A program made the translations under genes and the position numbers. Below the pieces are notes generated by a model, which had not been told where the DNA came from, ran no database searches, and was given only the letters and a program-made list of their open reading frames with translations. Shown one piece after another: positions 11,455 to 32,523 of a DNA stretch of 64,000 bases. The stretch's first letter is position 1; each line of letters begins with the position of its first letter. Source of the DNA: Bradyrhizobium sp. WD16 (lineage in GTDB: Bacteria; Pseudomonadota; Alphaproteobacteria; Rhizobiales; Xanthobacteraceae); contig NZ_CP028908.1 in assembly GCF_024181725.1 (NCBI RefSeq), forward strand, positions 5,755,501-5,819,500, read 5' to 3'.

Positions 11455-12495
11455 CTAATAGTTTGTCGCAGTCTTCTCGTTCGGAATGCCGTCAATCGGG
11501 CATTCGGCCGTTCCCGCGGTCGAGCGGGTCAATCCCTCGACCATCTCGCGCGTGCCTTCGGGGTCCGCGATCCACTTCGCATAGAAGTCGTAGGGACAGG
11601 CCGCGAGGCCTTTCGCGCTCTCGCCGGAATTGATCGTGCCGGTGTAGCCGCGATGCAGCAGCTTGAACAGGTGATTCTGCGACTGGTTGTTGCGGCGCGC
11701 GTCGCGGATCAGGCTCTTTGACAAGGCCGCGTATTGGATGCCGTATTCCTCCTCGCCGGTCTCGCCCAAGGTGCGGCCATCGAAGCCGATGATCGCGGAG
11801 TGACCGAAATACGAGTAGACGCCGTCGAAGCCGGCGGCATTGGCGACCGCGACATAGACGTTGTTGGCCCAGGCCATCGCCTTGGATATCAGCACCTGCT
11901 GCTCCTTGGCCGGATACATGTAGCCCTGGCAACGCACGATCAGCTCGGCGCCCTTCATAGCGCAGTCGCGCCAGATCTCCGGAAAATTGCCGTCGTCGCA
12001 GATGATCAGGCTGACCTTCAGGCCCTTCGGACCATCGGACACGTAGGTGCAATTGCCCGGATACCAGCCTTCGATCGGCACCCAGGGCATGATCTTGCGA
12101 TACTTCTGAACAATCTCGCCCTTGTCGTTCATCAGGATCAAGGTGTTGTACGGCGCCTTGTGCGGATGCTCCTCATGGCGCTCGCCCGTGAGCGAGAACA
12201 CGCCCCACACCTTCGCCTTGCGGCAGGCCTCGGCGAAGATCGCCGTCTCCTCGCCCGGCACCTGCGAGGCGGTATCGTACATCTCCTTGGAGTCGTACAT
12301 GATGCCGTGGGTCGAATATTCCGGGAAAATCACCAGGTCCATGCCCGGCAGGCCGAGCTTCATGCCGACGACCATGTCGGCGATCTTGCGGGCGTTGTCG
12401 AGCACCTCGGCCTTGGTGTGCAGCCGCGGCATCTTGTAATTGACGACTGCGACGCCGACCGTGTCGTTGCTCGAAGAAATGTCACCGTGAAGCAT
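11455..12495 (-). CDS. amiE: Aliphatic amidase AmiE
   Basis: 346-residue nitrilase-superfamily amidase that hydrolyses short aliphatic amides such as acetamide to acid and ammonia in the cytoplasm. Length and numbering match Pseudomonas AmiE exactly: the triad is Glu59 (IFPEYSTHG), Lys134 (YRKIMPW) and Cys166 ([11 protein letters not shown]). Last gene of the urtABCDE-fmdA-fmdB-amiE series, 55 bp after fmdB. The operon supplies transport, so the ammonia product fits a nitrogen-scavenging role. A formamidase of the AmiF type is possible, but the sequence is closer to AmiE. Confidence 0.95.
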
Positions 12496-12550
12496 TTGAA
12501 CGCCTTTCCGTTCCAGTTTGGATCTACCGTCAATCGAACGGCCACGCGTG

Positions 12551-12898
12551 TCAGTGGCTGATCATCCAGGGCCGCGCCGTCGGGAAGCCGACGGCACCGC
12601 TCCTGCTTTTCGCGACGAGCCGTCCCGCTTTCTTGCTGCCCGTGGCGCAACAGCCGCAGCGGGGGCCGTGGTCGGCCTTGTACTGGTCGAGCGTCTTCGG
12701 CGCGTGGCGGCTGCGCTCGTTCGTGGCGTGCGCCTTGCGCCTGTCCGCAGGCATGCAGACGAACGCCGGCGCCGTGAGGATCACGCGCGGTGATTCCATC
12801 TCGCACCGCGGGCAGACCTGCGGCGCGTCGCATTCGGCCATCGGCCGCATGTCCGTGAACGGGCCGCAGGCGTCGCAGAGATATTCATAGACCGGCAT
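12551..12898 (-). CDS. fmdB: FmdB-family zinc-ribbon protein
   Basis: 115-residue protein with an N-terminal FmdB zinc ribbon: [12 protein letters not shown] with Cys8 and Cys11, then CPRCE with Cys29 and Cys32. FmdB proteins accompany formamidase genes and are thought to be regulatory, but the function is not firmly known. The C-terminal half is basic and has no recognised domain, with an extra Cys-x-Cys-Cys near residue 83. It lies between fmdA and amiE in the same operon. Confidence 0.88.
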
Positions 12899-12981
12899 TG
12901 GATTTGTCCTTGCGCAATGGCGGATGAGCGGCGAATGCAGGGCGCGAAAGCCGTCGCCGCCCCTGCCCCGTCACGCAGCAC

Positions 12982-14211
12982 TCACTTGTCCGGCGAGATC
13001 GGCATCTGGATGTCGCCCTTGATGTGCTGCACCGGACCGGCCGAGGACGGCATGATGTCGAAATCGAAGATCTCGGTCGGCAGCCACAGCGTAGCGCAGG
13101 CGTTGGGCACGTCGACGACGCCCGAGATGTGGCCCTGGCACGGCGCGGTGCCGAGGATCGAATAGGCCTGGGCGCCGGAATAGCCGAACTTCTTCAGATA
13201 CTCGATCGCGTTCAGGCAGGCCTGGCGATAGGCGATGTGAACGTCGAGGTAATGCTGCTTGCCGGCCTCGTCGACCGAGATCCCCTCGAAGATCAGGTAG
13301 TCCTTGTAGTTCGGAGTGATCGGCGACGGCTTGAACACCGGGTTCTTGATGCCGTATTTCGCCACGCCGTCCTTGATGACATCGACCTTGATATGCAGCC
13401 AGCCGGCCATCTCGATGGCGCCGCAGAAGGTGATCTCGCCGTCGCCCTGACTGAAGTGCAGATCGCCCATCGATAGTCCACCGCCCGGCACATAGACCGG
13501 GAAGTAGATTTTCGACCCGCGCGAGAGATCCTTGATGTCGCAATTGCCGCCATGCTCGCGCGGCGGCACCGTGCGCGCGCCTTCGAGGCCGATCCTGGCC
13601 TTGGCGTCGCCCTTGGCCTGGCCGGCATGTGCGGTCGGCGCGAACGGCGGATTGGCGAGTCCGGGGACACGGGTCGGATTGGACGCGATCAGTTCCGCCT
13701 CGCGTGCGTTCCAGGCCGCCAGCATCTTCGGATCGGGCAGACAACCGATCAGTCCGGGATGGATCATGCCAGCGAAATTCACGCCGGGCACGTGACGCGA
13801 CAACGTATAGAGGCCCTTGATGTCCCAGATCGACTTCTGCGCCAGCGGGAAATGGTCGGTCAGGAAGCCGCCGCCATTCTGCTTCGAGAAGAAGCCGTTG
13901 AAGCCCCACAGGCTCTCCTTCAACGGACCGACATCGAGCAGGTCGACCACCAGGAGATCGCCGGGCTCGGCGCCCTTGACGCCGATTGGGCCGGACAGGA
14001 AGTGCACGATCGAGAGGTCGATGTCGCGCACGTCATCGGCGGAATCGTCGTTCTTGATGAAGCCGCCGGTCCAGTCATAGGTCTCGATGATGAAATCGTC
14101 GCCCGGACGGACCCACTCGACGATCGGGATGTCGGGATGCCAGCGGTTGTGGACCTTGTCGTTTTCATAGACCGACCTGGTGAGATCGACCTTGATCAGT
14201 GTCTCCGGCAT
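12982..14211 (-). CDS. fmdA: Formamidase FmdA (acetamidase/formamidase family)
   Basis: 409-residue enzyme that converts formamide to formate and ammonia. It opens MPETLIKVDLTRSVYENDKV HNRWHPDIP and contains LSGPIGVKGAEPGDLL, FAGMIHPGLIGCLPD and CGAIEMAGWLHIK, all typical of FmdA/AmdA. The start at 14211 is preceded by AAGGGGAGC; an in-frame extension to 14298 is not conserved and runs into urtE. It lies 31 bp after urtE, which ties the transporter to formamide and related amides, as known for fmd genes of Methylophilus. Confidence 0.95.
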   Translation of the reverse strand: MPETLIKVDLTRSVYENDKVHNRWHPDIPIVEWVRPGDDFIIETYDWTGGFIKNDDSADDVRDIDLSIVHFLSGPIGVKGAEPGDLLVVDLLDVGPLKESLWGFNGFFSKQNGGGFLTDHFPLAQKSIWDIKGLYTLSRHVPGVNFAGMIHPGLIGCLPDPKMLAAWNAREAELIASNPTRVPGLANPPFAPTAHAGQAKGDAKARIGLEGARTVPPREHGGNCDIKDLSRGSKIYFPVYVPGGGLSMGDLHFSQGDGEITFCGAIEMAGWLHIKVDVIKDGVAKYGIKNPVFKPSPITPNYKDYLIFEGISVDEAGKQHYLDVHIAYRQACLNAIEYLKKFGYSGAQAYSILGTAPCQGHISGVVDVPNACATLWLPTEIFDFDIMPSSAGPVQHIKGDIQMPISPDK

Positions 14212-14242: not shown

Positions 14243-14932
14243 CTAGACTGAGAGGTATTTCGAGATCTGCGCGGCATCGACGCTGTCGCGCGGATCATCG
14301 CGCACGATCTCGCCGTTCTCGATCACGAGCACGCGGTCGGCGATGTCTAGCGCAAAGCTCATGACCTGCTCGGAGACCACGATCGACAGCCCGCGCTCGT
14401 CGCGAATGCGTCTGAGGGTCTTGGCAATGTCCTTGATGATCGACGGCTGGATGCCCTCGGTCGGCTCGTCCAGCAGCAGCACCTTCGGCCTCGTCGCGAG
14501 CGCGCGCGCGATGGCCAATTGCTGCTGCTGCCCACCGGAGAGATTGCCGCCGCGGCGGTTCTTCATCTCCAGCAGCACCGGGAACAGCTCATAGATATCG
14601 CCGGGCACTTCCGAGCCGCCGGACACCACAAGGCCGGTCTCGATATTCTCCTTCACCGTCATGGTCGAGAAGATCATGCGACCCTGCGGCACGTAGGCGA
14701 GGCCTTTGGCGACGCGATCATAGCTCGGCAGCGCGCCGAGCTCGGCGCCGTCCACCGTCACCGAGCCGCTGCTGGCCGGCACGATCCCCATCAGCGACTT
14801 CATCAGCGTCGTCTTGCCCATGCCGTTGCGGCCCATGATCGCGACGATCTCGCCCGGCGCCACCGAGACGTTGACGCCGTGCAGCACCTCGCTCTGGCCG
14901 TAGGCAACGTGGAGATCATTGATAGCCAGCAT
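14243..14932 (-). CDS. urtE: Urea/short-chain amide ABC transporter ATPase UrtE
   Basis: 229-residue LivF-like ATPase. Walker A is GRNGMGKTT (34-42), the signature is LSGGQQQQ (131-138) and Walker B is LLLDEPTEG (152-160). UrtE-specific wording includes EPTEGIQPSII. It pairs with UrtD to energise the UrtBC permease. Gaps of 11 bp to urtD and 31 bp to fmdA place it mid-operon. Confidence 0.93.
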   Translation of the reverse strand: MLAINDLHVAYGQSEVLHGVNVSVAPGEIVAIMGRNGMGKTTLMKSLMGIVPASSGSVTVDGAELGALPSYDRVAKGLAYVPQGRMIFSTMTVKENIETGLVVSGGSEVPGDIYELFPVLLEMKNRRGGNLSGGQQQQLAIARALATRPKVLLLDEPTEGIQPSIIKDIAKTLRRIRDERGLSIVVSEQVMSFALDIADRVLVIENGEIVRDDPRDSVDAAQISKYLSV

Positions 14933-14943
14933 GAACAGGCTCC

Positions 14944-15699
14944 TTAATGGCCGAGGTAGACTTCGATCACCCTGGGATCGTTCTTGACATGCTCCATGGT
15001 GCCCTCGGAGAGGATCTGGCCCTGGTGCAGAACGGTGACCTTGTGGGCGATTTCCTCGACGAACTTCATGTCATGCTCGATGACCAGCACGGAGCGATTT
15101 CTGATGATGCGGTTGAGCAGTTCGGCGGTCTTGGCGCGCTCGCTGACGCTCATGCCGGCGACCGGCTCGTCCAGCATCAGCAGATCCGGATCCTGGATCA
15201 GCAGCATCCCGATTTCGAGCCACTGCTTCTGGCCGTGACTGAGCAGCGCCGCGCGCATGTCGAGGCGGTCCTTAAGGAAGATCATCTCCGCGACTTCGTG
15301 GACACGCTCGCGCACGGCGGCATCTCGGGTGAAGGTCAACGCACCGAAGACGGTGCGTCCGCACGGAAAGGAGATCTCGAGGTTCTCGAACACGGAGAGA
15401 TCATCGTAGATCGACGGCGTCTGGAACTTGCGGCCGACGCCGGCCTTCACGATCTCGTTCTCCTTCAGCTTGGTCAGATCCTTACCGCGGAACTCGATCG
15501 AGCCCGACGTGGCTTTGGTCTTGCCGCAGATCAGGTCGAGGACCGTCGTCTTGCCCGCGCCGTTGGGACCGATGATGACGCGGATCTCGTTTTCCTCGAC
15601 ATAGAACGACAGATCGTTGACCGCCTTGAACCCGTCGAAGGACACCGTGAGCGCTTCGACCGACAGCAGGAACGGTTTGGGAAGTTGACCGATCAGCAT
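14944..15699 (-). CDS. urtD: Urea/short-chain amide ABC transporter ATPase UrtD
   Basis: 251-residue LivG-like ATPase. Walker A is GPNGAGKTT (44-52). The signature is LSHGQKQWLEIG, with His in place of Gly, as is usual in UrtD. Walker B is LLMLDEPVAGMS. Starts 10 bp after urtC and ends 11 bp before urtE. Confidence 0.93.
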   Translation of the reverse strand: MLIGQLPKPFLLSVEALTVSFDGFKAVNDLSFYVEENEIRVIIGPNGAGKTTVLDLICGKTKATSGSIEFRGKDLTKLKENEIVKAGVGRKFQTPSIYDDLSVFENLEISFPCGRTVFGALTFTRDAAVRERVHEVAEMIFLKDRLDMRAALLSHGQKQWLEIGMLLIQDPDLLMLDEPVAGMSVSERAKTAELLNRIIRNRSVLVIEHDMKFVEEIAHKVTVLHQGQILSEGTMEHVKNDPRVIEVYLGH

Positions 15700-15709
15700 G
15701 ACGTCCTCC

Positions 15710-16855
15710 TCATTCGGCCAGCGCGCCGTCGGAGACCGATTTGTCGGTCCAGCCGGCGCCGGACTTCGGCTTGCGCGAGGCGATCAACCGATCGATCCGC
15801 GGCTGAACATAGTCCTGCCAGAGACCGGCAAGGCCGTTGGGGAAGGCGAGAACGACGGCGATGAACAATGCGCCCAGGCCGAACAGCCAGAGCTCTGGAA
15901 ACGATTCGGAAAGGCTGGTCTTGGCGAAGTTGACGAGCATGGCACCATAGACAGCGCCGAGGATCGAAAGCCGGCCGCCGACCGCCGTATAGATCACCAT
16001 CTCGATCGACGGCACGATTCCGACGAACGACGGCGACATGAATCCGACATTGAGCGCGAACATGGCCCCGCCGATCGCGGCGAACACCGCGGCGATGCAG
16101 AAGGCAAAGATCTTGAAATTTGCGACGCTGTAGCCGGAGAAGCGGACGCGGTCTTCCTGATCGCGCATCGCGACCAGGATGCGGCCGAGCTTCGAATGCC
16201 TGACGAACTGTGCGATGAAGATGCAGACGAACAGGCAGCCGACCTCGACGAAATAGAGGACCGTCTTGGCGTGGTCGGGACGGATGTCCCAGCCCTTGAG
16301 CGTTCGCAGGTCGGTCATGCCGTTGATGCCGCCCGTGTAGCCCTGCTGACCGACGATCAGGATGGTCAGGATCGCGGCGACCGCCTGCGTGATGATCGCG
16401 AAATAGGTGCCGCCGACGCGGCGCTTGAACATGGCGGCGCCGATGATCAGGGCAAAGATGCCCGGCACCAAGACGACGGCGACGATGGTGAAGGAAAGGC
16501 TGTGGAACGGCTTCCAGAAGAACGGCAGCGCGGTGATCTGATTCCAGTCCATGAAGTCGGGGATGCCCGGGGTCGACTGGATCTTCGTGTTCTCGACGCT
16601 GGATGCCTCGAGCTTCAAGAACATCGCCATGCAGTAGCCGCCGAGGCCGAAGAACACGCCCTGCCCCAGGGTGAGAATGCCGCCATAGCCCCAGCAGATC
16701 ACCAGCCCCAGCGCGACGAAGGCGTAAGTGAGATATTTGGCGATCAGATTGAGTCTGAACACGTCGAGACAGAGCGGCAGGATCACGACGAGCAAGGTAG
16801 CGAGCACCAGGATGCCGATCAGCTCCGAACGCGTGATGAAGCGACTGTCGTTCAT
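15710..16855 (-). CDS. urtC: Urea/short-chain amide ABC transporter permease UrtC
   Basis: 381-residue LivM-like permease with many hydrophobic segments (for example LIGILVLATLLVVILPLCL near the start and LFIAVVLAFPNGLAGLW near the end). The stretch CWGYGGILTLGQGVFFGLGG is typical of UrtC. Length fits the family. Spaced 16 bp from urtB and 10 bp from urtD. Confidence 0.92.
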   Translation of the reverse strand: MNDSRFITRSELIGILVLATLLVVILPLCLDVFRLNLIAKYLTYAFVALGLVICWGYGGILTLGQGVFFGLGGYCMAMFLKLEASSVENTKIQSTPGIPDFMDWNQITALPFFWKPFHSLSFTIVAVVLVPGIFALIIGAAMFKRRVGGTYFAIITQAVAAILTILIVGQQGYTGGINGMTDLRTLKGWDIRPDHAKTVLYFVEVGCLFVCIFIAQFVRHSKLGRILVAMRDQEDRVRFSGYSVANFKIFAFCIAAVFAAIGGAMFALNVGFMSPSFVGIVPSIEMVIYTAVGGRLSILGAVYGAMLVNFAKTSLSESFPELWLFGLGALFIAVVLAFPNGLAGLWQDYVQPRIDRLIASRKPKSGAGWTDKSVSDGALAE

Positions 16856-16871
16856 GGATTGATCCCCCGGC

Positions 16872-17798
16872 TTATTTGCGGACCTTGAGAGCGAACAGCC
16901 CCTGCGGCCGCAGCATCAGAATTCCGACCACCGCGAGCAGCGTCAGCACCTTCGCCATCGATCCCGACGTGAAGAACTCGAGCGTCGACTGCGTCTGCGA
17001 GATCGAGAATGCCGATGCGATGGTGCCGAGCAGGCTGGCAGCGCCGCCGAACACGACGACCAGGAAGGTGTCGACGATGTAGAGCTGGCCCGAGGTCGGC
17101 CCGGTCGAGCCGATCATGGTGAAGGCGCTGCCGGCGACGCCGGCGATGCCGCAGCCGAGCGCAAAGGTGTAGCGATCGACTTTCGCGGTGTTGATGCCGA
17201 CGGCGCCCGCCATGACGCGGTTCTGCACGACGGCGCGCACCTGGCGGCCCCAGCGCGACCTGAACATGACGTAGGCGACCGCAATCGTGATCAGCACGGT
17301 CAGGCCCATGACGAAGACGCCGTTGATCGGAACCTCGATCGAGTCGGTGACGTGCAGCGATCCCAGCATCCACTGCGGAAGCTCGACACCGACTTCGCGC
17401 GCACCGAAGATCGAGCGATAGGCCTGCTGCAGCATCAGGCTGAGGCCCCAGGTCGCAAGCAGCGTATCGAGGGGCCGCTTATAGAGATGCCGGATCACGA
17501 CCCATTCCACCACCATCCCCAGCGCGCCGGAGGCCAGGAAGGCCAGGATCATCGCGAGGAAGAAGTAGCCGCCGAACAGGCCCGGCAGATAGGACTGGAA
17601 GGCGTTCGACGTCATCCAGGTGACGTAGGCGCCGAGGATCATGAATTCGCCATGCGCCATGTTGATGACGTTCATCTGGCCGAAGATGATCGCAAGACCG
17701 AGCGCCATCAGCACATAGACGGAAAACAGGATCAGGCCGGCAAAGCCCTGCATCACGAAGATGGAGCCCAGATCACCAATCGAATAGTCGCCAAACAT
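16872..17798 (-). CDS. urtB: Urea/short-chain amide ABC transporter permease UrtB
   Basis: 308-residue LivH-like permease. It shows FGQMNVINMAHGEFMILGAY and VFGGAASLLGT, both hallmarks of UrtB, with about eight membrane segments. The start at 17798 (MFGDYSIGDLG) has GGAGAAG about 5 bp upstream; the frame extends further but without conserved sequence. Unlike longer UrtB proteins it lacks a large N-terminal extension. It follows urtA after 128 bp containing two stem-loops. Confidence 0.92.
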   Translation of the reverse strand: MFGDYSIGDLGSIFVMQGFAGLILFSVYVLMALGLAIIFGQMNVINMAHGEFMILGAYVTWMTSNAFQSYLPGLFGGYFFLAMILAFLASGALGMVVEWVVIRHLYKRPLDTLLATWGLSLMLQQAYRSIFGAREVGVELPQWMLGSLHVTDSIEVPINGVFVMGLTVLITIAVAYVMFRSRWGRQVRAVVQNRVMAGAVGINTAKVDRYTFALGCGIAGVAGSAFTMIGSTGPTSGQLYIVDTFLVVVFGGAASLLGTIASAFSISQTQSTLEFFTSGSMAKVLTLLAVVGILMLRPQGLFALKVRK

Positions 17799-17926: not shown

Positions 17927-19186
17927 TTACTGGTAGCCCTTCGGGAACGGGTCGGGCTCGACGAGATCCGCGGTCTCGTAGATCAGCTCGAACTGGCCAT
18001 CGAGCCTGGCGCGGCCGACGCGGGTCTTCGACCAGAGGTGATGGTTTTCGTGGATGCGCACATAGCCTTCGGGCGCACCCTTGAATTCCACGCCCGGCGA
18101 GGCGGCTGCGATCTTGTCGACGTCGAAGCTGCCGGCCTTCTCGACCGTCAGCTTCCACAGCCACGGGCCGAGATAAGCGGCCTGCGTCACGTCGCCGATT
18201 ACGGTCTTCTCGCCCCAGCTCTTCTTGAAGGCGGAGACGAAGGCCTTGTTGTTGGCGTTGTCGAGCGACTGGAAGTACTTCATGCAGGCATAGGCGCCGG
18301 CGATATTCTCGCCGCCGATGCCATCGATCTCGTCTTCGGTCACCGAGATCGTCAGCAGCGCCTGCTTGGACAGATCGATGCCGGCCGCCTTGAGCTGCTT
18401 GTAGAAGGCGACGTTCGATCCGCCGACCACGTCGGTGAAGATCACGTCGGGCTTGGTCAGCTTGATCTTGTTGATCACCGAATTGAACTGGGTGCTGCCG
18501 AGCGCGTAATACTCCTCGCCGACGACCTTGCCCTTGAGCACGTTCTCGACGTGCTTGCGCGCGATCTTGTTCGAGGTGCGCGGCCAGATGTAGTCCGAGC
18601 CGATGAAGAAGAACGACTTCGCGCCCTTTTCCTTGGCGATCCAGTTCAGGCCGGCGAGAATCTGCTGGGTGGCCTCTTGGCCGGTGTAAATGACGTTCTT
18701 GGACTGCTCGAGACCTTCATAGAAGGTCGGGTAGTAGAGCATGCCGTTGTACTGCTCCACGACCGGCAGCACCGCCTTGCGCGACGCCGAGGTCCAGCAG
18801 CCCATGATCGCCGCGACCTTGTCGTTGACGAGAAGCTTCTTGGCCTTCTCGGCGAAGGTCGGCCAGTCGCTGGCGCCGTCTTCCTGGATGAACTTGATCT
18901 TGCGCCCGAGCACGCCGCCGGCGGCGTTGATCTGCTCGATCGCGAGCTTCTCGGCCTCGATCGAGCCGGTTTCCGAGATCGCCATCGTGCCGGTGGCCGA
19001 ATGCAGGATGCCGACGGTGACTTCAGTATCGGTCACCGCAAGTCCCGTGGTGTTGACCGCGGACGTTGCCAGCGCCTGCGCAAAGGAGGAACGCGGAAGC
19101 ATCGTCAAGGCAGGAATAGCCGCCATTCCCATCAGCAGCTTGCGGCGGAATGCCGACTGCAAGCCGTCGTTTGTTTCGCCAGACAT
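17927..19186 (-). CDS. urtA: Urea/short-chain amide substrate-binding protein UrtA (FmdD-like)
   Basis: 419-residue periplasmic binding protein of the Leu/Ile/Val-type fold. A signal with twin arginines (FRRKLLMGMAAIPALTMLP) ends near ASSFAQA-like sequence around residue 37. The mature part has TVGILHSATGTMAISE, CWTSASRKAVLPVVEQ and GSDYIWPRTSNKIARK, all UrtA-like. The ATG at 19186 is preferred over an upstream GTG (19192) because GGGG lies about 7 bp before it. First gene of the operon and divergent from the sensor kinase. With formamidase and amidase downstream and no urease in view, the ligand may be short-chain amides as well as urea. Confidence 0.93.
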   Translation of the reverse strand: MSGETNDGLQSAFRRKLLMGMAAIPALTMLPRSSFAQALATSAVNTTGLAVTDTEVTVGILHSATGTMAISETGSIEAEKLAIEQINAAGGVLGRKIKFIQEDGASDWPTFAEKAKKLLVNDKVAAIMGCWTSASRKAVLPVVEQYNGMLYYPTFYEGLEQSKNVIYTGQEATQQILAGLNWIAKEKGAKSFFFIGSDYIWPRTSNKIARKHVENVLKGKVVGEEYYALGSTQFNSVINKIKLTKPDVIFTDVVGGSNVAFYKQLKAAGIDLSKQALLTISVTEDEIDGIGGENIAGAYACMKYFQSLDNANNKAFVSAFKKSWGEKTVIGDVTQAAYLGPWLWKLTVEKAGSFDVDKIAAASPGVEFKGAPEGYVRIHENHHLWSKTRVGRARLDGQFELIYETADLVEPDPFPKGYQ

Positions 19187-19304
19187 GAGCACCCCATCGG
19201 TTCGAGAACGCGCTTATTTGTCAGGCGAGGATTGCCCGGAATTGTGCACCCCACGGATACGCAAGATCGCGTATATTGCACCGCAAAACAGCGACGTAGG
19301 CTTC

Positions 19305-19320
19305 TGGTACGGGATTTGCT
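19305..19320 (+). promoter_or_regulatory. Possible sigma-54 promoter (-24/-12) for the sensor kinase
   Basis: TGGTACGGGATTTGCT fits the RpoN consensus TGGCAC-N5-TTGCW with one change in the -24 block. It is oriented towards the kinase GTG 55 bp downstream. Nitrogen-scavenging genes are often RpoN/NtrC controlled, which supports it, but a chance match cannot be excluded. No clear counterpart was found for urtA on the other strand. Confidence 0.4.
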
Positions 19321-19374: not shown

Positions 19375-22300
19375 GTGGCAGGGCTGCAGCGAATAGACCG
19401 CGTCAGGCGCCAGTACAATCAATGGGTCGCCAACCAGACGCTGGAAGACTACGCGCTACGCTTCACCGCCAAGAGTTCGCGGCGCTGGTCCGCCGCCCGC
19501 GTCGCCAACACCGCCCTCGGCGCGATCTCGTTTTTGGCGCTGGAAGCGATCGGCGGCACCATTACACTGAACTACGGTGCCGCCAACGCGACCGCCGCCA
19601 TCCTGGTCGTCAGCGTCATCATCTTCTGCTGCGGGCTGCCGATCGCCTATTATGCCGCAAAATGCGGCATCGACATCGACCTGCTGACCCGGGGCGCCGG
19701 CTTCGGCTATATTGGCTCGACCATCACTTCCCTGATCTACGCCTCCTTCACCTTCATCTTCTTCGCGTTCGAGGCGGTCATTCTCGCCGCCGCCCTGGAG
19801 ATGTGCTTCGGCATCCCGCGGCCGCTCGGCTATCTCGTCAGTGCGATCGTCATCGTTCCGCTGGTGACCTACGGCATCACCCTGATCAGCCGCTTCCAGC
19901 TCTGGACGCAGCCGCTGTGGGTCGTCCTTCACGTCCTCCCCTTCCTGGCGATCGCCTATGCAAACCCGCATTCCTTCACCGAGTGGCGAAAATTCGCCGG
20001 CGAGCATGGCGATCCCGGCGGCCATCTCGACCTCTTGTTGTTCGGCACGGCCGCCTCGGTGGTGTTTTCCCTGGTGGCGCAGATCGGCGAGCAGGTCGAC
20101 TTCCTGCGCTTTCTGCCGCGCGACGGCCGGACCTCGCGGGCCTCGTGGTGGATCGCCCTGCTCGGTGCCGGTCCCGGCTGGATCATCTTCGGCGCGCTCA
20201 AACTGCTGGTCGGCTCCTTCCTCGCCTATTTCGCGCTGAGCCACGGCGTTGCGATCGACCAGGCCGCCGAGCCCGCGACCATGTATCTCGAAGCATTCCG
20301 CTACGTGCTGTCGCAACCGGACCAGGCGCTGGCGCTCACCGGCACCTTCGTCATTCTCTCCCAGGTCAAGATCAACGTCACCAACGCCTATGCCGGCTCG
20401 ATCGCCTGGTCGAACTTTTTCTCGCGGCTGACGCATAGCCATCCGGGACGCGTGGTCTGGCTGGTGTTCAACGTCACGGTGGCGCTGCTGCTGATGGAAA
20501 TCGGCGTCTACAAGGCGCTGGAGCAGACGCTGGCGCTCTACTCCAATGTCGCGATCGCCTGGGTCGGCGCGCTGGTCGCCGATCTCGTCATCAACAAGCC
20601 GCTCGGCCTGCGCCCGCAGCAGATCGAGTTCAAGCGGGCCCATCTCTACGACATCAACCCGGTCGGCGTCGGCGCCATGACGATCGCGACCATCGCCTCG
20701 ATCAGCGCATTTTACGGCCTGTTCGGTCCGTCCGCGAAGGCGCTGTCCGCCTTCGTCGCGCTCGCGGCGGCCTTCGTCTCGGCACCGCTGATCGCATGGG
20801 CGACCGACGGCAAATACTACATCGCCCGCAAGCCGAAGCGGAGCTGGCAGAACGTCGAGGCGATCCAGTGCTGTATCTGCGAACATTCGTTCGAGCCGGA
20901 GGACATGGCCTCCTGCCCCGCCTATGCCGGACCGATCTGCTCGCTGTGCTGTTCGCTCGATGCCCGCTGCCACGATCTCTGCAAGCCGCACGCGCGGGCC
21001 GGCGCGCAGGTATCGGAGACGTTCGGCAAGTTGATGCCCGAGGCGATCCAAGCGCGGATCAACTCGCAGTTCGGACGCTATCTCGGCGTATTCGCGGTCT
21101 CGGCCGGCCTGGTGGGGCTGACGCTGGGGCTGATCTACCTGCAGACATCGACGACCGCGCACGCCGACGCGCTGCTGGCGGATGTGCTGTGGAAGGTGTT
21201 TTTCGCGCTCATCATCATCATCGGCGTCGTCGCCTGGCTGTTCGTGCTGGCGCAGCAGAGCCGCCGTGCCGCGGAAGAGGAAACACGGCGGCAGACCACG
21301 CTGCTGATCCAGGAGATCGAGGCGCACAAGCGCACAGATGCGCAATTGCAGCGCGCCAAGGAGGTCGCCGAATCCGCCAACCTTGCCAAAAGCCGCTACG
21401 TCGTCGGCCTGAGCCATGAGCTGCGCTCGCCGCTGAACGCGATCTCCGGCTATGCGCAGCTCCTGGAGCAGGACACCAGCCTGCAGGCCCGCCCGCGCGA
21501 TCAGGTGCGCGTCGTCCGCCGCAGCGCAGACCACCTCTCCGGACTGATCGACGGCATTCTGGACATCTCGAAGATCGAAGCGGGACGACTTTATCTGTCG
21601 CGCGACGAGGTCCGCTTCAGCGATTTCCTCGATCAGCTCGTCGGCATGTTCCGCGTTCAGGCGATGGCCAAGGGCATCGAGTTCGTGTTCAAGCGTCCTG
21701 CGGTGCTGCCTGTCGTGGTCTATGCCGACGAGAAGCGGCTGCGACAGATCCTGATCAATCTGTTGTCGAACGCGATCAAGTTCACGCCGGCCGGCTGTGT
21801 GCAATTCGTGGTGCATTACCGCAGCCCGGTCGCCGAGTTCGAGGTGACCGACACCGGGCCCGGCATCCGGGCGGACGATCTCGAGCGCATCTTTGCCCCC
21901 TTCGAGCGCGGCGCACTCGGCGTCTCGCAGCCGCAGACCGGCACCGGCCTCGGACTGACGATCAGCCGGCTGCTCGCCGGCGTCATGGGCGGCGACATCA
22001 AGGTGACGAGCACGGTCGGCCTCGGCAGCACATTCCGCGTCAAGCTGCTGCTCTCCGAGGTGACAAATCCGAGGTGCGACGCTCCGGTGGAAGCGCCGAT
22101 CTACGGCTATCTCGGCCCGCGCAAGACCATTCTGATCACCGACGACGATCCGACCCATCGCGACCTGCTGCGCGAGGTGCTGGCGCCGCTCGGCTTCATC
22201 CTGCTCAGCGCGCCCGACGGTCCCGGCTGCCTTGCGCTGGCGCAGCACTGCCGGCCCGATCTGTTCCTGCTCGACATCTCGATGGCCGGCATGGACGGCT

Positions 22301-22743
22301 GGACGGTCGCGGAGACGCTACGCGCCAACGGCCATCACCAGGCGCGGATCCTGATGGCGTCGGCGAGCGCGATCGAGGCGCATGGCGCGCCGCTGGCGCA
22401 GCCGTTCCACGACGGCTATCTGATGAAGCCGATCGACATCCCGCGCCTCCTGGAAACCATCCGCCAACTGCTCAGGATCGAGTGGCAATACGAGGCCGGC
22501 CAGGTCGCCGTGCCACTCTGGCGGCCGGACAGCGGCTCGCGGCCGCCGGTGAAATATATCGAGGAACTGATCGGCCTCGGCCACCTCGGCTATGTCAGGG
22601 CGATCCAGCTCAAGCTCGACGAGATCGGCAACAAGCACCCCGAGCATGCCGATTTCGTATCGCAGATGCGCTCGGTGATCGACCGTTTCGATCTCGACCA
22701 ATACATGGCGACGTTGAAGACATTGCACGCCCATGACCATTGA
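19375..22743 (+). CDS. NCS1-permease / histidine kinase / receiver fusion sensor
   Basis: 1,122-residue membrane sensor. Residues 1-485 look like a whole NCS1 (cytosine/purine/allantoin-type) permease with about 12 hydrophobic segments. Residues 499-540 form a Cys-rich module (Cys499, 500, 502, 514, 522, 525, 526, 532, 536), probably metal-binding. Two more membrane segments (about 566-590, 606-627) and a coiled coil follow. The kinase has H-box His681 (GLSHELRSPLNAISG), N-box Asn799 and G boxes DTGPG (826-830) and GTGLGL (856-861). A receiver follows with acids 923-925, phospho-acceptor Asp967 and Lys1018. The tail (1040-1122) is unassigned. GTG start with GGGGAG 8 bp upstream. It diverges from urtA and overlaps its regulator gene by 11 bp, so it probably senses amide or urea supply (inference). 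Confidence 0.9.
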   Translation: MAGLQRIDRVRRQYNQWVANQTLEDYALRFTAKSSRRWSAARVANTALGAISFLALEAIGGTITLNYGAANATAAILVVSVIIFCCGLPIAYYAAKCGIDIDLLTRGAGFGYIGSTITSLIYASFTFIFFAFEAVILAAALEMCFGIPRPLGYLVSAIVIVPLVTYGITLISRFQLWTQPLWVVLHVLPFLAIAYANPHSFTEWRKFAGEHGDPGGHLDLLLFGTAASVVFSLVAQIGEQVDFLRFLPRDGRTSRASWWIALLGAGPGWIIFGALKLLVGSFLAYFALSHGVAIDQAAEPATMYLEAFRYVLSQPDQALALTGTFVILSQVKINVTNAYAGSIAWSNFFSRLTHSHPGRVVWLVFNVTVALLLMEIGVYKALEQTLALYSNVAIAWVGALVADLVINKPLGLRPQQIEFKRAHLYDINPVGVGAMTIATIASISAFYGLFGPSAKALSAFVALAAAFVSAPLIAWATDGKYYIARKPKRSWQNVEAIQCCICEHSFEPEDMASCPAYAGPICSLCCSLDARCHDLCKPHARAGAQVSETFGKLMPEAIQARINSQFGRYLGVFAVSAGLVGLTLGLIYLQTSTTAHADALLADVLWKVFFALIIIIGVVAWLFVLAQQSRRAAEEETRRQTTLLIQEIEAHKRTDAQLQRAKEVAESANLAKSRYVVGLSHELRSPLNAISGYAQLLEQDTSLQARPRDQVRVVRRSADHLSGLIDGILDISKIEAGRLYLSRDEVRFSDFLDQLVGMFRVQAMAKGIEFVFKRPAVLPVVVYADEKRLRQILINLLSNAIKFTPAGCVQFVVHYRSPVAEFEVTDTGPGIRADDLERIFAPFERGALGVSQPQTGTGLGLTISRLLAGVMGGDIKVTSTVGLGSTFRVKLLLSEVTNPRCDAPVEAPIYGYLGPRKTILITDDDPTHRDLLREVLAPLGFILLSAPDGPGCLALAQHCRPDLFLLDISMAGMDGWTVAETLRANGHHQARILMASASAIEAHGAPLAQPFHDGYLMKPIDIPRLLETIRQLLRIEWQYEAGQVAVPLWRPDSGSRPPVKYIEELIGLGHLGYVRAIQLKLDEIGNKHPEHADFVSQMRSVIDRFDLDQYMATLKTLHAHDH

Positions 22744-23659
22744 CCCAAAAAAACGCGACGTCGCCCTCGTCGTCGACGATTCTCCCGAGACGCTCCGGCT
22801 GCTCACCGACGCGCTCGACGGCGCCGGGATGACCGTCATGGTCGCGCTCGATGGCCTCGCAGCGATGCGGATCGTCGATCAGATCACACCGGACATCGTG
22901 CTGCTCGATGCGGTGATGCCCGGCATGGACGGATTCGAGACCTGCAAGCGGCTGAAGCGGGATGCCGGCCTGGGTACGGTGCCGATCATCTTCATGACGG
23001 GTCTCGCCGAAACCGAGCACCTCGTCCGCGGGCTGGAGGCCGGCGGCGTCGACTATGTGACGAAGCCGGTCGCGATCGAGGAGATGCTGGCGCGGATCCG
23101 CGTTCACCTCGCCAATGCAAGGATGACCCTCAGCGCCCGCGCCGCCCTCGACGTCTCCGGCCGCTACCTGCTCGCGGTCGACAATGCCGGCCAGCTGCTC
23201 TGGGCGACGCCGCAGGCGCAAAAGCTGCTGTCGGACACGCTCGCCGGCGCCGCTGACGATTTCTCCCTGCCCGACCCGATGCCGCAATGGCTCGATGAGG
23301 TGCAGAAAGGCAATTCAGCGGCCAAGACCGCAACCATGGCGTCGTTTCCCGGCAAGGAGCAATTGCGGCTGCAATACATGGGCAAGCTCGGCGCCAACGA
23401 ATTCCTGCTGCGGCTCGCCAAGGACACCGGCGGCGATGCGCCGGCGGAATTTTCCAGAGAGCTCGGCCTGACCACGCGCGAAGGCGAAGTGCTGTCCTGG
23501 ATATCCAAAGGAAAGACCAATCGGGATATCGCCCAGATCCTGGGGTTGAGCCCCCGCACCGTCGACAAGCACCTCGAGCAAATCTATTCCAAGCTCGGCG
23601 TCGAGAATCGCACCGCGGCGGCCGCCGTCGCGGTCAAGGCGAGAAACCTGAAGCAATGA
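22733..23659 (+). CDS. LuxR-family response regulator paired with the fusion kinase
   Basis: 308-residue regulator. The receiver (1-125) has Asp15/Asp16, phospho-acceptor Asp59 (IVLLDAVMPGMDG) and Lys111. A middle region (about 150-235: GRYLLAVDNAGQLLWATPQA) resembles a PAS-like or redox-free sensory insert of unknown ligand. The C-terminal LuxR helix-turn-helix is LTTREGEVLSWISKGKTNRD then ILGLSPRTVDKHL. The ATG at 22733 lies inside the kinase gene, so the two are co-translated. Likely target is the divergent urt-fmd-amiE operon, by position only. Confidence 0.9.
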   Translation: MTIDPKKRDVALVVDDSPETLRLLTDALDGAGMTVMVALDGLAAMRIVDQITPDIVLLDAVMPGMDGFETCKRLKRDAGLGTVPIIFMTGLAETEHLVRGLEAGGVDYVTKPVAIEEMLARIRVHLANARMTLSARAALDVSGRYLLAVDNAGQLLWATPQAQKLLSDTLAGAADDFSLPDPMPQWLDEVQKGNSAAKTATMASFPGKEQLRLQYMGKLGANEFLLRLAKDTGGDAPAEFSRELGLTTREGEVLSWISKGKTNRDIAQILGLSPRTVDKHLEQIYSKLGVENRTAAAAVAVKARNLKQ

Positions 23660-24644: not shown

Positions 24645-26273
24645 ATGAGCAAGACCGTCTCCACTTCACCCAGCCATGCCGACATTCGGGTGCATCGCGC
24701 CGACATCAAGGCCTATCTGGTCGGCGGCGGCATCGCTTCGCTGGCCGCAGCCGCCTTCCTGATCCGCGACGGCGACCTGCTCGGTCACAACATCGTCATT
24801 CTCGAGGACAGCGACACGCTCGGCGGCAGCCTCGACGGCGCCGGCTCACCGCAGGCCGGCTATGTCCTGCGCGGCGGCCGCATGTTCGAGAGCAAATACC
24901 AGTGCACCTACGACCTGTTCTCCTCGGTCCCGACCCTCGACAAGTCGCGGACCGTCACCCAGGAGATCTTCGCCTGGAACGAGACCATGAAGACCTCGTC
25001 GAAGGCGCGTCTGGTGCGCGGCGGGCGCACCATCGACGCCCCGGACTACGGCCTCTCCGAAGCTCACGTCTTCGCCCTCGCCAAGCTCGGGATCGAACCG
25101 GAAAGCGCGCTCGGCAACAGCCGCATCAGCGACCGCTTCGACGAGGCCTTCTTCCGCACCAATTTCTGGCTGATGTGGTGCACCACCTTCGCCTTCCAGC
25201 CCTGGCACAGCGCCGTCGAGCTCAAGCGCTACCTGCTGCGCTTCAGCCACATGGTGGAAGGCTTCAACCGGCTGCGCGGCATCATGCGCACGGTCTACAA
25301 CCAGTACGACTCCCTGGTCCTGCCGCTGCACAAATGGCTCGACGAGCGCGGGGTCGAATTCCGCCGCAACACCCGCGTCACCGACATCGTCACGGCGACC
25401 GACGGCGCGGCCACGCGCATCGAGCGGCTCCTGTGCCGGCGCGACGGCAAGGACGTCGAGATCGCCGTCAGCCCCCAGGACCTCGTGATCGTCACGCTCG
25501 GCTCGATGACCGATGCCTCCAGCCTCGGCGACACCGACCATGCGCCGGTGATGAAGACCAAGGCCGACGGCGGCGCATTCAAATTGTGGGAGACGATGGC
25601 GGCCGGCCGCCCCGAATTCGGCCGTCCCGCCGTGTTCGCCGACCACATCGACGAATCCAAATGGGTGTCCTTCACGGCGACCCTGCGCGACCCGACCTTC
25701 TTCCGGATCGTGCGCGACATCACCGGCAACGTCCCGGGCGAAGGCGGCCTCGTCACCCTCACCGACTCGGCCTGGCTCGCCTCCTTCGTGCTACCCCATC
25801 AGCCGCATTTCATCGGCCAGCCCGCTGACGTCCAGGTGTTCTGGGGCTACGGCCTCGCCGTCGACCAGCCCGGCGACTTCGTCAGAAAGCCGATGACGGC
25901 ATGTTCGGGCCGCGAGATCCTCACCGAGGTGCTCGGCCATCTCGGCGTCACCACGGAAACGGCGAAGATCCTCGACAGCGCCATCGTCATCCCCTGCATG
26001 ATGCCGTTCATCACCAGCCAGTTCCTGCGCCGGGAGATCGGCGACCGGCCGCAGGTGCTGCCGAAGGGCTGGCGCAATCTCGCCCTGGTCGGGCAGTTCT
26101 GCGAGATTCCGGACGATGTCGTCTTCACCGTCGAGTATTCGGTGCGCGCGGCGATGCTCGCCGTCGACGGCCTGCTCGGCCTCGATCGGCCGCCGCCCGC
26201 CGTCTACAAGGGGCAATATGATCCGCGGGTCCTGTTCAAGGCGTTCCGCAGCCTGCACGATATGGCGGGCTGA
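24645..26273 (+). CDS. ohyA: Oleate hydratase (myosin-cross-reactive-antigen family)
   Basis: 542-residue FAD-dependent hydratase that adds water to the cis-9 double bond of oleic acid, giving 10-hydroxystearate. The FAD fold is YLVGGGIASLAAAAFLIRDG (24-43), followed by ILEDSDTLGGSLDG. The catalytic-loop motif RGGRMFES is at 76-83, with the conserved Glu82. YNQYDSLVLPLHKWL and a C-terminal NLALVGQFCEIPDDVVFTVE are family hallmarks. AAGGGCG lies 8 bp before the ATG. It stands alone; the downstream IclR gene is convergent. It may serve fatty-acid detoxification. Confidence 0.93.
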   Translation: MSKTVSTSPSHADIRVHRADIKAYLVGGGIASLAAAAFLIRDGDLLGHNIVILEDSDTLGGSLDGAGSPQAGYVLRGGRMFESKYQCTYDLFSSVPTLDKSRTVTQEIFAWNETMKTSSKARLVRGGRTIDAPDYGLSEAHVFALAKLGIEPESALGNSRISDRFDEAFFRTNFWLMWCTTFAFQPWHSAVELKRYLLRFSHMVEGFNRLRGIMRTVYNQYDSLVLPLHKWLDERGVEFRRNTRVTDIVTATDGAATRIERLLCRRDGKDVEIAVSPQDLVIVTLGSMTDASSLGDTDHAPVMKTKADGGAFKLWETMAAGRPEFGRPAVFADHIDESKWVSFTATLRDPTFFRIVRDITGNVPGEGGLVTLTDSAWLASFVLPHQPHFIGQPADVQVFWGYGLAVDQPGDFVRKPMTACSGREILTEVLGHLGVTTETAKILDSAIVIPCMMPFITSQFLRREIGDRPQVLPKGWRNLALVGQFCEIPDDVVFTVEYSVRAAMLAVDGLLGLDRPPPAVYKGQYDPRVLFKAFRSLHDMAG

Positions 26274-29531: not shown

Positions 29532-30887
29532 GTGTCCACCGCCCTTCCCACCCTCGACGCGCTTGCCGCTGCCCTGGCTGACGGCCGTACCACCAGCCGG
29601 GCGCTGGTTGAAGATTGTCTCGCCCGCATCGCCGATCAGGGCGGCGAAGGCGCGCGCGCCTTTGTGTCGGTCGATCCCGCGCGGGTGCGTCGCGCCGCCG
29701 ACGCCATGGACGGCCTGCGGGCGGCGGGCGCCGCGCCCTCGCGCTTCGCCGGCATTCCGATTTCGGTCAAGGACCTGTTCGACGTTACCGGCGAAGTCAC
29801 CCGCGCCGGCTCGAAGGTGCTGGCGGATGCCGCACCGGCGGCGCAGGACGCCGAGGTGATCGTCCGGCTGCGGGCCGCCGGCTTCATCGTCATCGGCCGC
29901 ACCAACATGACCGAGTTCGCCTATTCGGGGCTCGGCATCAATCCGCATTATGGCACGCCCGCCGCCCCCTGGCAGCGCGCGACGCCGCGGGTGCCCGGCG
30001 GCTCGTCCTCGGGCGCGGCGGTCTCGGTCGCCGACGGCATGGCCCATGCCGCGATCGGCACCGACACCGGCGGCTCGAGCCGGATCCCGGCGGCCTTCAC
30101 CGGCATCGTCGGCTACAAGCCCACCGCGCGGCTGATGCCGCAGGACGGCATCGTACCGCTCGCCCCCTCGCTCGACGCCGCCGGGCCGCTGGCGCGTTCG
30201 GTGCGCTGCTGCGCCAGCCTGCATGCGCTGATGAGCGGCGCCAAGGAGTCAAAAGTCGATGAACTGCCGCTCGGCGGGTTGCGCCTCGCCGTGCCGCAGA
30301 CGCTGGCCATGGACGATCTCGACCCCGAGGTCGCGACCACGTTCAAGGCCGCGCTGTCGCGCCTGTCGTCAGCGGGCGTGCGGGTCAGCGACGTCGCCTT
30401 CGATGCATTCGCAAAAATTCCGCCGATGAGCAGCAAAGGCGGCTTCCCGGCGATGGAAAGCTATGCCTGGCACAAGCCGCTGATCGAAACCAGGCGCGAC
30501 CTCTACGATCCGCGGGTCATCAGCCGCATCATGCGCGGCGCCGACGCCACGGCCGCCGATTATCTCGCGCTGCTCGCCGACCGCAAGACGCTCGTCGCCG
30601 CCGCCGAAGCGCAGCTGGCGCCATTCGACGCCCTAGTGCTGCCGACCGCCGCCATCGTGCCGCCGCGCATCGCCGATCTTTCAACCGACGAGGCCTATGC
30701 CAGGGCCAACATCCTGGCGCTGCGCAACACCACGCTGATCAACCTGATCGACGGCTGCGCCGTCTCGCTGCCGGTTCACCGCGCCGGCGAGGCGCCGGTC
30801 GGCCTGATGCTGGCCTGCCGCGGCGGCGACGATGCGCGCCTGTTCGCGCTGGCGGCGGCGGTGGAGCAGCTGTTCGCTAGCAGCTGA
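29532..30887 (+). CDS. Amidase-signature hydrolase
   Basis: 451-residue amidase. The Ser-cisSer-Lys triad is visible: Lys80 (PISVKDLFDV), Ser158 (PGGSSSGAAVS) and Ser182 (GTDTGGSSRIPA), with the normal 24-residue spacing between serines. It hydrolyses an amide bond in the cytoplasm; the substrate is not predictable. GatA is unlikely as no gatB or gatC is near. Start ATG follows CGTGGAGTTCCGCC, which gives GGAG about 8 bp upstream. Confidence 0.92.
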   Translation: MSTALPTLDALAAALADGRTTSRALVEDCLARIADQGGEGARAFVSVDPARVRRAADAMDGLRAAGAAPSRFAGIPISVKDLFDVTGEVTRAGSKVLADAAPAAQDAEVIVRLRAAGFIVIGRTNMTEFAYSGLGINPHYGTPAAPWQRATPRVPGGSSSGAAVSVADGMAHAAIGTDTGGSSRIPAAFTGIVGYKPTARLMPQDGIVPLAPSLDAAGPLARSVRCCASLHALMSGAKESKVDELPLGGLRLAVPQTLAMDDLDPEVATTFKAALSRLSSAGVRVSDVAFDAFAKIPPMSSKGGFPAMESYAWHKPLIETRRDLYDPRVISRIMRGADATAADYLALLADRKTLVAAAEAQLAPFDALVLPTAAIVPPRIADLSTDEAYARANILALRNTTLINLIDGCAVSLPVHRAGEAPVGLMLACRGGDDARLFALAAAVEQLFASS

Positions 30888-32145: not shown

Positions 32146-32523
32146 CGCCGGCGATGCTGGTGACGGCAATACCGCTGCCGGCAAGCCTGCCGCGCCGGAG
32201 AGAGTTAATGGTCTCGCGGAAATTTGAAGGCGTCCACATCCGGATCGCTACGCCGTGAGCGCCATTCACCCCGGCAACCGGAGCGCCTGGTCAGGCCGGC
32301 TGAAACCGGATTAAAGACTAAATAATATTACATCTTCGCAAGAATCGACCTTTGGCCGTTTCGCATCGCAGCGAGATCAGATTAATGTCCGGATGCGGGC
32401 ACGCGACTGCTGCAACGGCCCGCAGGCCCGCAATGTGACTGGCGTATGATCGGGATGCTTGTCATCCCGCCAAGCGTCATCTTGATGCGACGTCTTCTGG
32501 TGAGATGGTTGGATAGACGGTCA
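32146..32523. other. Intergenic region upstream of the RND operon
   Basis: 378 bp with no gene or repeat that I can support. It is locally AT-richer near 32310-32360, which would suit a promoter for the efflux genes, but no clear -35/-10 pair was fixed. Confidence 0.35.

Follow-up and report, generated by a model that had tools for sequence, protein, structure and literature searches.

A permease-fused hybrid histidine kinase and its LuxR-type regulator lie beside urea and amide genes in Bradyrhizobium sp. WD16 and may control them through a conserved palindrome

The window, i.e. the whole stretch of 64,000 nucleotides of Bradyrhizobium sp. WD16 that was analysed, carries the gene of a hybrid histidine kinase with a permease-like N-terminal part and, overlapping it by 11 bp, the gene of a REC-LuxR response regulator. 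This pair diverges from the genes urtABCDE, fmdA, fmdB and amiE (Table 1). A first-pass annotation of the same DNA had described both the overlap and the divergence, and both were recovered here: the two regulatory open reading frames (ORFs) were found as described, UrtA, UrtB, UrtC, UrtD and UrtE all score above their NCBIfam cut-offs, and the small ORF between fmdA and amiE is presumably FmdB-like, a name given from its position. The region between kinase and urtA contains a conserved palindrome and a sigma-54-like element; a sigma-70 scan of this region found nothing.

Table 1. Positions in the window of the genes, protein regions and DNA elements considered
Feature	Position	Strand	Evidence and remarks
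amiE, aliphatic amidase	11455..12495	-	NF009802, 718 bits
fmdB-like small protein with CxxC pairs, 115 aa	12551..12898	-	ORF; similar ORFs adjoin fmdA in many loci
fmdA, formamidase	12982..14211	-	NF045496, 751 bits; probable start, ORF runs to 14298
urtE	14243..14932	-	TIGR03410
urtD	14944..15699	-	TIGR03411
urtC	15710..16855	-	TIGR03408
urtB	16872..17798	-	TIGR03409 from ORF residue 138; probable start near 17798, ORF to 18164
urtA	17927..19186	-	TIGR03407, 535 bits, above cut-off; ATG 19186 by inspection, ORF-tool start GTG 19192
Probable operator ATACGCAAGATCGCGTAT, ATACG-n8-CGTAT	19257..19274	.	Conserved palindrome; putative site
Sigma-54-like -24/-12 element TGGTACGGGATTTGC, toward kinase	19305..19319	+	One mismatch to TGGCAC-n5-TTGC
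Hybrid histidine kinase with N-terminal NCS1-like permease	19375..22743	+	1122 aa, GTG start; ORF and Pfam
Permease module, divergent NCS1, residues 1-486	19375..20832	+	Profile comparison; no direct Pfam/PDB match
Cys module, residues 499-537, C-x2-C-x11-C-x7-C-x2-C-C-x5-C-x3-C	20869..20985	+	Eight Cys invariant, 145/145
Two further hydrophobic segments, residues 569-587 and 608-626	21079..21252	+	Kyte-Doolittle peaks 2.01 and 3.09
HisKA (His681) and HATPase_c	21388..22053	+	Pfam; His681 in 145/145 sequences
Receiver domain (Asp967)	22129..22464	+	Pfam; Asp967 in 143/145 sequences
C-terminal tail	22465..22740	+	Poorly conserved, median identity 28.6%; no Pfam match
REC-LuxR response regulator (Asp59)	22733..23659	+	308 aa; Response_reg and GerE in Pfam

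The kinase was considered as a hybrid histidine kinase on the basis of Pfam, which delimits HisKA (residues 672-737), HATPase_c (785-893) and an attached Response_reg (919-1030), and of an alignment of 145 sequences, the window's own kinase included, in which the His and Asp of these domains are conserved. The two sequences without Asp967 (L200 and L232) have gaps in this column, and the receiver was absent from the L232 homologue in the Pfam scan. His681 and Asp967 are the residues named at first pass; the two extra membrane segments then proposed coincide with hydrophobic peaks, and the tail left unassigned at that time belongs to no Pfam family. An HPt domain in this tail is not supported: of the eight tails inspected, several carry Tyr in place of the His of the most conserved motif. 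Median identity to distant homologues is 61.9% for the permease, 58.7% for the HATPase and 43.7% for the receiver, and 117 of the 486 permease columns are conserved at 98% or more. Conservation of the permease at the level of the HATPase, above that of the receiver, suggests that the family shares one ligand.

The linker between permease and kinase has no Pfam match. It had been described as a nine-Cys module, and nine Cys are indeed present in the window's kinase (499, 500, 502, 514, 522, 525, 526, 532 and 536); C500 is variable, so that the invariant set is one of eight. Matches to this module in 398 genomes fall at places of kinase homologues in 57 of 58 cases. We know of no Cys module in the ammonium transporter-kinase of Kuenenia stuttgartiensis.

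Assignment of the N-terminal part to NCS1, also proposed at first pass, needed further proof because direct family matches are absent or weak. A search with residues 1-490 found nothing in Pfam up to E = 10 and nothing among PDB sequences up to E = 1; the NCS1 model (Pfam PF02133) gave no direct match above its cut-off, and the sole NCBIfam match was a cytosine-permease model (E 1e-4; 21 bits, where the cut-off is 326). Profiles and intermediate sequences supplied this proof. Using hhalign, a kinase-only profile was compared with a profile of four NCS1 proteins (four of the five matching above cut-off, L140 being dropped because its longest ORF is another gene) and, as a control, with seven proteins out of a larger SSS/SLC5 set: the former alignment extends over 387 columns with a probability of 90% and an E-value of 1.7e-6, the latter has a probability of 0.5% and an E-value of 0.12, each E-value being that of a single comparison. 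With intermediate sequences added, the NCS1 comparison reaches 5.7e-26. The standalone NCS1 permease L198 shares 27% identity with the query over 480 aa (BLASTP), and L198 and L134 each match PF02133 as well as the query permease, as bridging sequences do. By these comparisons the assignment to NCS1 holds, and an SLC5 identity is rejected on the SSS control. Against PDB, the kinase-only profile had no match up to E = 10. For a mixed profile the closest solved structure is 7qoa, a cytosine permease; a structure model built from 30 near-identical sequences has a mean pLDDT of 35.5.

The partner protein combines a REC domain with its Asp and a GerE helix-turn-helix, as in NarL/FixJ (REC-LuxR) regulators, and Asp59 is present in all 68 aligned rows. 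Linkage of the pair was counted in 68 homologous loci, taking at most 20 kb per locus. These loci are the stretches kept from a list of 57 kinase places, after exclusion of the window's own locus, eight nearly identical genomes of the same family and the partial G583, together with a further set of homologues; a 94-aa fragment (G595) was scored as weak, and selected neighbour genes were annotated by Pfam and NCBIfam. In 63/68 loci and 45/47 genera, genes for urt, fmdA, urease or urea carboxylase are found close to the pair; of 40 control stretches (20 kb each), one has urea or amide genes, so that the arrangement is far beyond chance. Homologues are therefore not scattered away from amide and urea genes, an outcome that the first-pass annotation had set against its own proposal. 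Five loci (L122, L125, L126, L127 and L133) have no urea or amide gene in the stretch. Since some homologues adjoin urease, or urea carboxylase with allophanate hydrolase, with neither fmdA nor amiE in the stretch, urea was added to amides in the scope of the proposal.

The palindrome played no part in the first-pass argument. It scores 21.2, higher than any other site in the window, the runner-up reaching 10.1. Upstream of the kinase, TAC-n10-GTA occurs in 34/68 loci compared with 3/68 in one shuffle, and each of the other 15 half-site spacings tried occurs in 0-3 loci. Sites were then scored with a weight matrix, a strong site being one of at least 16 bits. In 1.32 Mb, scanned leaving out 18-mers with TA on neither side, all 66 strong sites lie at -60 to +400 bp before the start of a kinase, urtA, urtA2, fmdA, porin or atzF gene, in windows that cover 5.7% of this sequence; the unfiltered scan of control stretches gave two in 800 kb. 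The 19 strong sites that are not near the kinase are all in front of fmdA (8), urtA2 (6), porin (3) or atzF (2). A strong site is found in 35 of the 37 urtA loci, in 12 of the 17 urtA2 loci and in neither of the two loci without LuxR regulator; the 18 of 68 loci without one include all seven whose stretch contains urease and lacks urtA. In the best 80 of 282 close loci (a few on short contigs), 79 carry the site, and the exception, L018, is also the sole one without urt-fmdA. The motif RT..KH of the regulator's recognition helix is kept in 60 loci, 49 of them with a site, and changed in six, one of them with a site (Fisher 0.0025, for a grouping picked post hoc and uncorrected for ancestry). 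A palindrome common to the kinase pair and to urt, fmdA, porin and atzF promoters suggests that the pair controls these genes.

The bare pattern was rejected as a genome-wide regulon finder, being too unspecific in several genomes: by reading, 10 of its 34 sites in 12 genomes are inside the kinase stretch, and a few of the matches listed are in genomes without the kinase. The 5.95-Mb genome of the window has it at two places, the second (L250) at the end of an ORF which we take to be diguanylate-cyclase-like, beside a presumably CsoR-like ORF. Weak overlapping half-sites (scores 9-11) upstream of canonical urtA in the unlinked genomes G033, G162 and G260, and one weak site (10.7) at an UrtA-like gene in G051, are suggestive of control in trans and were left out of the counts. 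A relaxed form of the sigma-54-like element is directed toward the kinase in 70 of the close loci (best 80 of 282) and reversed in none, for a shuffled mean of 0.35; as a general feature a sigma-54 promoter is rejected, this form occurring in only 2 of the 68 wider loci.

Starting from the observed architecture, conservation, linkage and distribution of the palindrome, a wiring of the permease-kinase and its regulator to amide and urea use is well supported at the level of sequence. For the signalling route we propose the following scheme, which we regard as rather probable. Urea, or a short amide resembling it, would be recognised by the NCS1-like permease, which the eight-Cys module and the two extra hydrophobic segments would couple to the hybrid histidine kinase; the kinase would phosphorylate the co-encoded regulator, probably from His681 directly to Asp59, and the attached receiver may restrain the signal or act as a phosphate sink. 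The regulator would bind ATACG-n8-CGTAT and control urtABCDE-fmdA-amiE at the window's locus and, elsewhere, urt2, porin, fmdA or uca-atzF genes and likely urease genes, activation appearing likelier than repression. We give about even chances to the broader view that one transceptor family, found across Pseudomonadota, provides a common master switch for scavenging urea and amides. Its receptor for urea and short amides would be an NCS1 permease tied to the kinase by an eight-Cys module peculiar to the family, and a single operator would accompany this receptor at urt-fmd, urt2, porin and uca-atzF operons alike. To our knowledge, bacterial sensing of urea and short amides is poorly understood; here sensor, regulator, DNA site and predicted regulon are proposed jointly, so that each can be tested at once.

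The pair could also control the same genes with the permease as a mere anchor or structural relic, the signal being nitrogen status, redox or metal perceived through the Cys module, or else the condition of some other protein. We consider this unlikely. A relic is expected to drift, whereas this permease is conserved like the kinase core and keeps R106, E133, D242, R245, Q330, N337 and Y339 in common with standalone relatives; these features have to be set against the invariance of the eight Cys and the near confinement of their module, in the 398 genomes searched, to the kinase family, the nickel/cobalt transporter gene next to the pair in L124 and in L133, and the sigma-54-like element of the close loci, which may place kinase synthesis under nitrogen control. 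More doubtful still is a permease sensing a classical NCS1 ligand (cytosine, uracil, allantoin or hydantoin) whose breakdown yields urea or ammonia, the urea and amide genes being induced downstream and serving purine or pyrimidine use. Formamidase and amidase are not known to take part in purine or pyrimidine breakdown, and the closest standalone permease found (27-30%) adjoins a frame with two CN_hydrolase stretches and an UrtA-like binding protein, although the substrates described by Pfam for the family are cytosine/purines, uracil, thiamine and allantoin, and both the weak NCBIfam match and the nearest structure are cytosine permeases. Among 20 selected neighbour proteins scanned, no purine or pyrimidine catabolic gene was found, apart from an L118 neighbour (12253-13323) matching sulfolactate/ureidoglycolate dehydrogenase models, all below cut-off.

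That the pair regulates other genes, its place beside urt and fmd being inherited without function, we hold to be very improbable: the five unlinked loci and the pattern matches lying mostly elsewhere in some genomes would agree with it, but partners vary (urt-fmd, urt2-urease, urease, uca-atzF) under a constant urea/amide theme, and the strong sites away from the kinase are all at promoters of this type.

The NCS1 members known so far, CodB (7qoa) and Mhp1 among them, carry nucleobases or hydantoins as independent transporters. At the profile level the present permease resembles NCS1 permeases along its length, but it would serve as the input domain of a kinase. In excerpts of PMC7918813, PMC13022988 and PMC9100948, the SLC5-STAC kinases CbrA, CrbS/MxtR and RpuS likewise carry a transporter fold at the N-terminus of a histidine kinase, joined through a linker domain, with a partner regulator governing nutrient uptake or use. 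Here, in contrast, the permease is NCS1-like, the linker consists of the eight-Cys module and two hydrophobic segments, the REC-LuxR regulator has its own palindrome, and the linked genes concern urea and amides. The ammonium transporter fused to a histidine kinase in Kuenenia stuttgartiensis (excerpt of PMC5764959) also joins a nitrogen-compound transporter domain to a kinase, with an Amt fold instead of NCS1. No characterised NCS1-kinase was present among the literature matches listed, whose scope mostly excluded subscription journals, and the histidine-kinase review PMC8399564 mentions NCS1 once, in the title of a referenced thesis on both subjects. The architecture fits the transceptor class, of which the NCS1-kinase would be a new variant; NCS1 would then join the few transporter folds known to act as receptors for kinases, its linker apparently differing from STAC.

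Induction of the Methylophilus methylotrophus fmd genes (fmdCABDEF) by formamide and urea is reported in part of the review PMC10781810, whose main text does not contain the terms "sensor" and "two-component". In Ectopseudomonas guguanensis G3, excerpts of PMC13296017 list, for urtABCDE operon III, a response regulator of the LuxR family next to urtABCDE and fmdA, and the legend of its Figure 6 names a hybrid histidine kinase there. These excerpts name the genes only, with no mention of a permease domain or operator; operon III is probably the same system.

The kinase and its LuxR-type regulator overlap by 11 bp according to their reading-frame coordinates, as the first-pass annotation had stated, and the divergent minus-strand genes were confirmed (NCBIfam) as UrtA-E, FmdA and an aliphatic amidase. 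The kinase is present as a single copy in the WD16 genome (5.95 Mb, one contig), where the one ordinary NCS1 permease is encoded away from it. Strong kinase homologues were detected in 52 of 398 genomes of a phylum sample (61 counting weak matches) and in 26 of 385 genomes of a class sample (27 counting a weak match), the homologue being truncated in one of the 26; WD16 is included in both samples. The survey of homologues bore out the proposed linkage: urea or amide genes were found in 63 of 68 wider loci (stretches up to 20 kb) versus 1 of 40 control stretches of 20 kb each, taken from kinase-bearing genomes including WD16, and were not found in the 5 other loci. Canonical urtA occurs in 37 of the 68 loci (fmdA as well in 35 of these); another 17 have urtA2 but no canonical urtA, 7 have urease with neither urtA nor urtA2 (L216, L228 and L230 among these carrying other urt genes), and 2 have fmdA as the only marker. 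NCBIfam matches in representative loci verified the assignments of urease alpha, urea carboxylase and allophanate hydrolase. Among the best 80 of 282 close loci, nearly all titled Bradyrhizobium, urtA adjoins the kinase in 79.

Coordinates of features in the window and in homologous loci (L-numbers)
Feature	Location	Strand	Assignment or context
Small FmdB-like ORF	12551-12898	-	Neighbour of the UrtA-E/FmdA/aliphatic amidase set
Candidate operator	19257-19274		ATACG-n8-CGTAT
Sigma-54-like element	19305-19319	+	Directed at kinase
Kinase ORF	19375-22743	+	HisKA, HATPase_c, Response_reg (Pfam)
Regulator ORF	22733-23659	+	Response_reg, GerE (Pfam)
MCRA-family gene	24645-26273		PF06100; next large ORF downstream of regulator
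Amidase-family gene	29532-30887		PF01425; ~6 kb downstream of regulator
HlyD-type fusion protein and AcrB/AcrD/AcrF-family pump genes	32446-36875		
Receiver-less kinases	L200:7999-10656; L232:8163-10847		~890 aa
Standalone permease	L198:8949-10439		Within L198:8949-13370, with CN_hydrolase stretches and UrtA-like Peripla_BP_5 protein
Permease	L134:8998-10416		PF02133 member
Second operator pattern in WD16	L250:1500-1517 (1156232-1156247)		
Asymmetric sites	L118:6801; L119:11201; L120:9660; L333:2809		Near urtA2-like genes

The urtA-kinase intergenic region contains a conserved palindrome, considered as a candidate operator (ATACGCAAGATCGCGTAT in the window), whose centre lies ~80 bp before the urtA start. 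The pattern TAC-n10-GTA was found upstream of the kinase in 34 of 68 loci, versus 0-3 loci for other spacings from 2 to 17 and 3 loci after shuffling. With a symmetric weight matrix derived from these occurrences (strong site: at least 16 bits), the 68 loci yield 66 strong sites, every one of them located -60 to +400 bp from a start of kinase, urtA, urtA2, fmdA, porin or atzF, windows that represent 5.7% of the sequence; 47 of them, mostly training sites, are near the kinase, and all 19 held-out sites precede fmdA, urtA2, porin or atzF. The 40 control stretches contain 2 strong sites in 800 kb. In the WD16 genome, TACGY-n6-RCGTA occurs at two places, one being the window site, versus 27 for the reversed control pattern. 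The bare pattern is common in several genomes, where 24 of 34 matches are, on our reading, unexplained. The second WD16 occurrence (CTACGCCAAACGGCGTAG) is away from the window's urea genes.

Presence of the site was compared with gene content and regulator type. Among the best 80 of 282 close loci, L018 is the sole locus without urt-fmdA and the sole one without the site; its kinase and regulator reading frames are open. The two loci without a LuxR regulator (L200 and L232) have no strong site, and the site is present in 49 of 60 loci with an RT..KH recognition helix versus 1 of 6 with an altered helix (L215, L225, L231, L233, L234, L235), a grouping chosen after looking (Fisher 0.0025, uncorrected for ancestry); both comparisons comprise few lineages. 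Strong sites are absent in 18 of 68 loci, including all seven with urease but no urtA. In the three loci of genus g38, the site precedes the kinase, and canonical urtA is on another contig with weak half-sites only.

The N-terminal module of the kinase, annotated as NCS1-type in the first pass, is concluded from sequence comparison to be a divergent NCS1 permease. This assignment relies on relatives and profiles, since direct searches say little: no Pfam match even at E<=10, no match in a direct PDB sequence search, and a sole NCBIfam match to cytosine permease (E 1e-4, far under the model cut-off), the only model matched by two distant homologues as well (E 1.2e-6 and 1.5e-5). The closest standalone permease found (L198) shares 27% identity with the kinase permease across 480 residues (E 6e-33) and matches PF02133 above and TIGR00800 below cut-off; the L134 permease matches the query at E 3.7e-10. 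A kinase-only profile (ten kinase permeases) gave E 1.7e-6 over 387 columns against four bona fide NCS1 proteins, and SSS identity was rejected with only E 0.12 against seven SSS proteins (a single comparison each). A mixed profile including standalone relatives had one match in 177635 PDB sequences, cytosine permease 7qoa (E 1e-11); none was found there with the kinase-only profile. Downstream of the L198 permease, which may be an NCS1 amide transporter, lie a frame containing two CN_hydrolase stretches and then a UrtA-related Peripla_BP_5 protein (gene borders from a simple ORF caller).

The module described earlier as nine-Cys does contain nine cysteines, but only eight are invariant (145/145 sequences; 66/66 outside the close set). 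Matches to it fall at kinase places in 57 of 58 cases in 398 genomes, the remaining one being partial (E 6.7e-4), and within this sample the module can thus be assigned to the kinase family; its eight cysteines would be compatible with two Zn(Cys)4 sites or an Fe-S cluster. Compared with the window, 66 distant homologues have median identities of 61.9% (permease), 75.6% (Cys module), 60.9% (HisKA) and 58.7% (HATPase); in the 64 homologues possessing them, the receiver reaches 43.7% and the tail 28.6%. Because the sensor domain is conserved to the same degree as the kinase core, these values suggest a single shared ligand.

Most likely, the permease would bind urea or a short amide and change state, this change would reach the kinase through the Cys module and the two helices, and the regulator, phosphorylated at Asp59, would act at the candidate operator. 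In Methylophilus methylotrophus, formamide and urea reportedly induce the fmd genes (PMC10781810). Between direct phosphotransfer and a four-step relay, direct transfer is more likely, since no HPt domain was found. The sigma-54-like element is present in 70 of the best 80 of 282 close loci versus 2 of 68 wider loci; in the close lineage, nitrogen limitation may raise kinase and regulator, and the ligand may then switch the operon.

Transporter-kinase fusions of the SLC5-STAC (PMC7918813, PMC13022988) and Amt (PMC5764959) types are already known; the present protein shares this fusion, its permease being NCS1, not SSS, and we file it as a member of the transporter-kinase class, as a variant new to it. 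No NCS1-kinase study was found among the papers listed by the literature searches; PMC13296017 names what is probably the same kinase-regulator pair, beside urtABCDE.

Several lineage-specific arrangements were observed. After the L200 and L232 kinases come a gene for a separate REC-HisKA-HATPase protein and fmdA, with no match to the LuxR regulator; this arrangement represents a rewired form of the sensor system. The asymmetric sites (L118, L119, L120, L333), with one half conserved (e.g. TACGTCAAACGCCCCAT), appear to be a lineage-specific form of the operator. In L231, L233, L234 and L235, the altered regulator helix reads SPATVKKHLE or SPATAKKHLE, divergent half-sites (TACGCC or variants) occur in some near urease/urtA2 genes, and inserts between permease and Cys module are longer.
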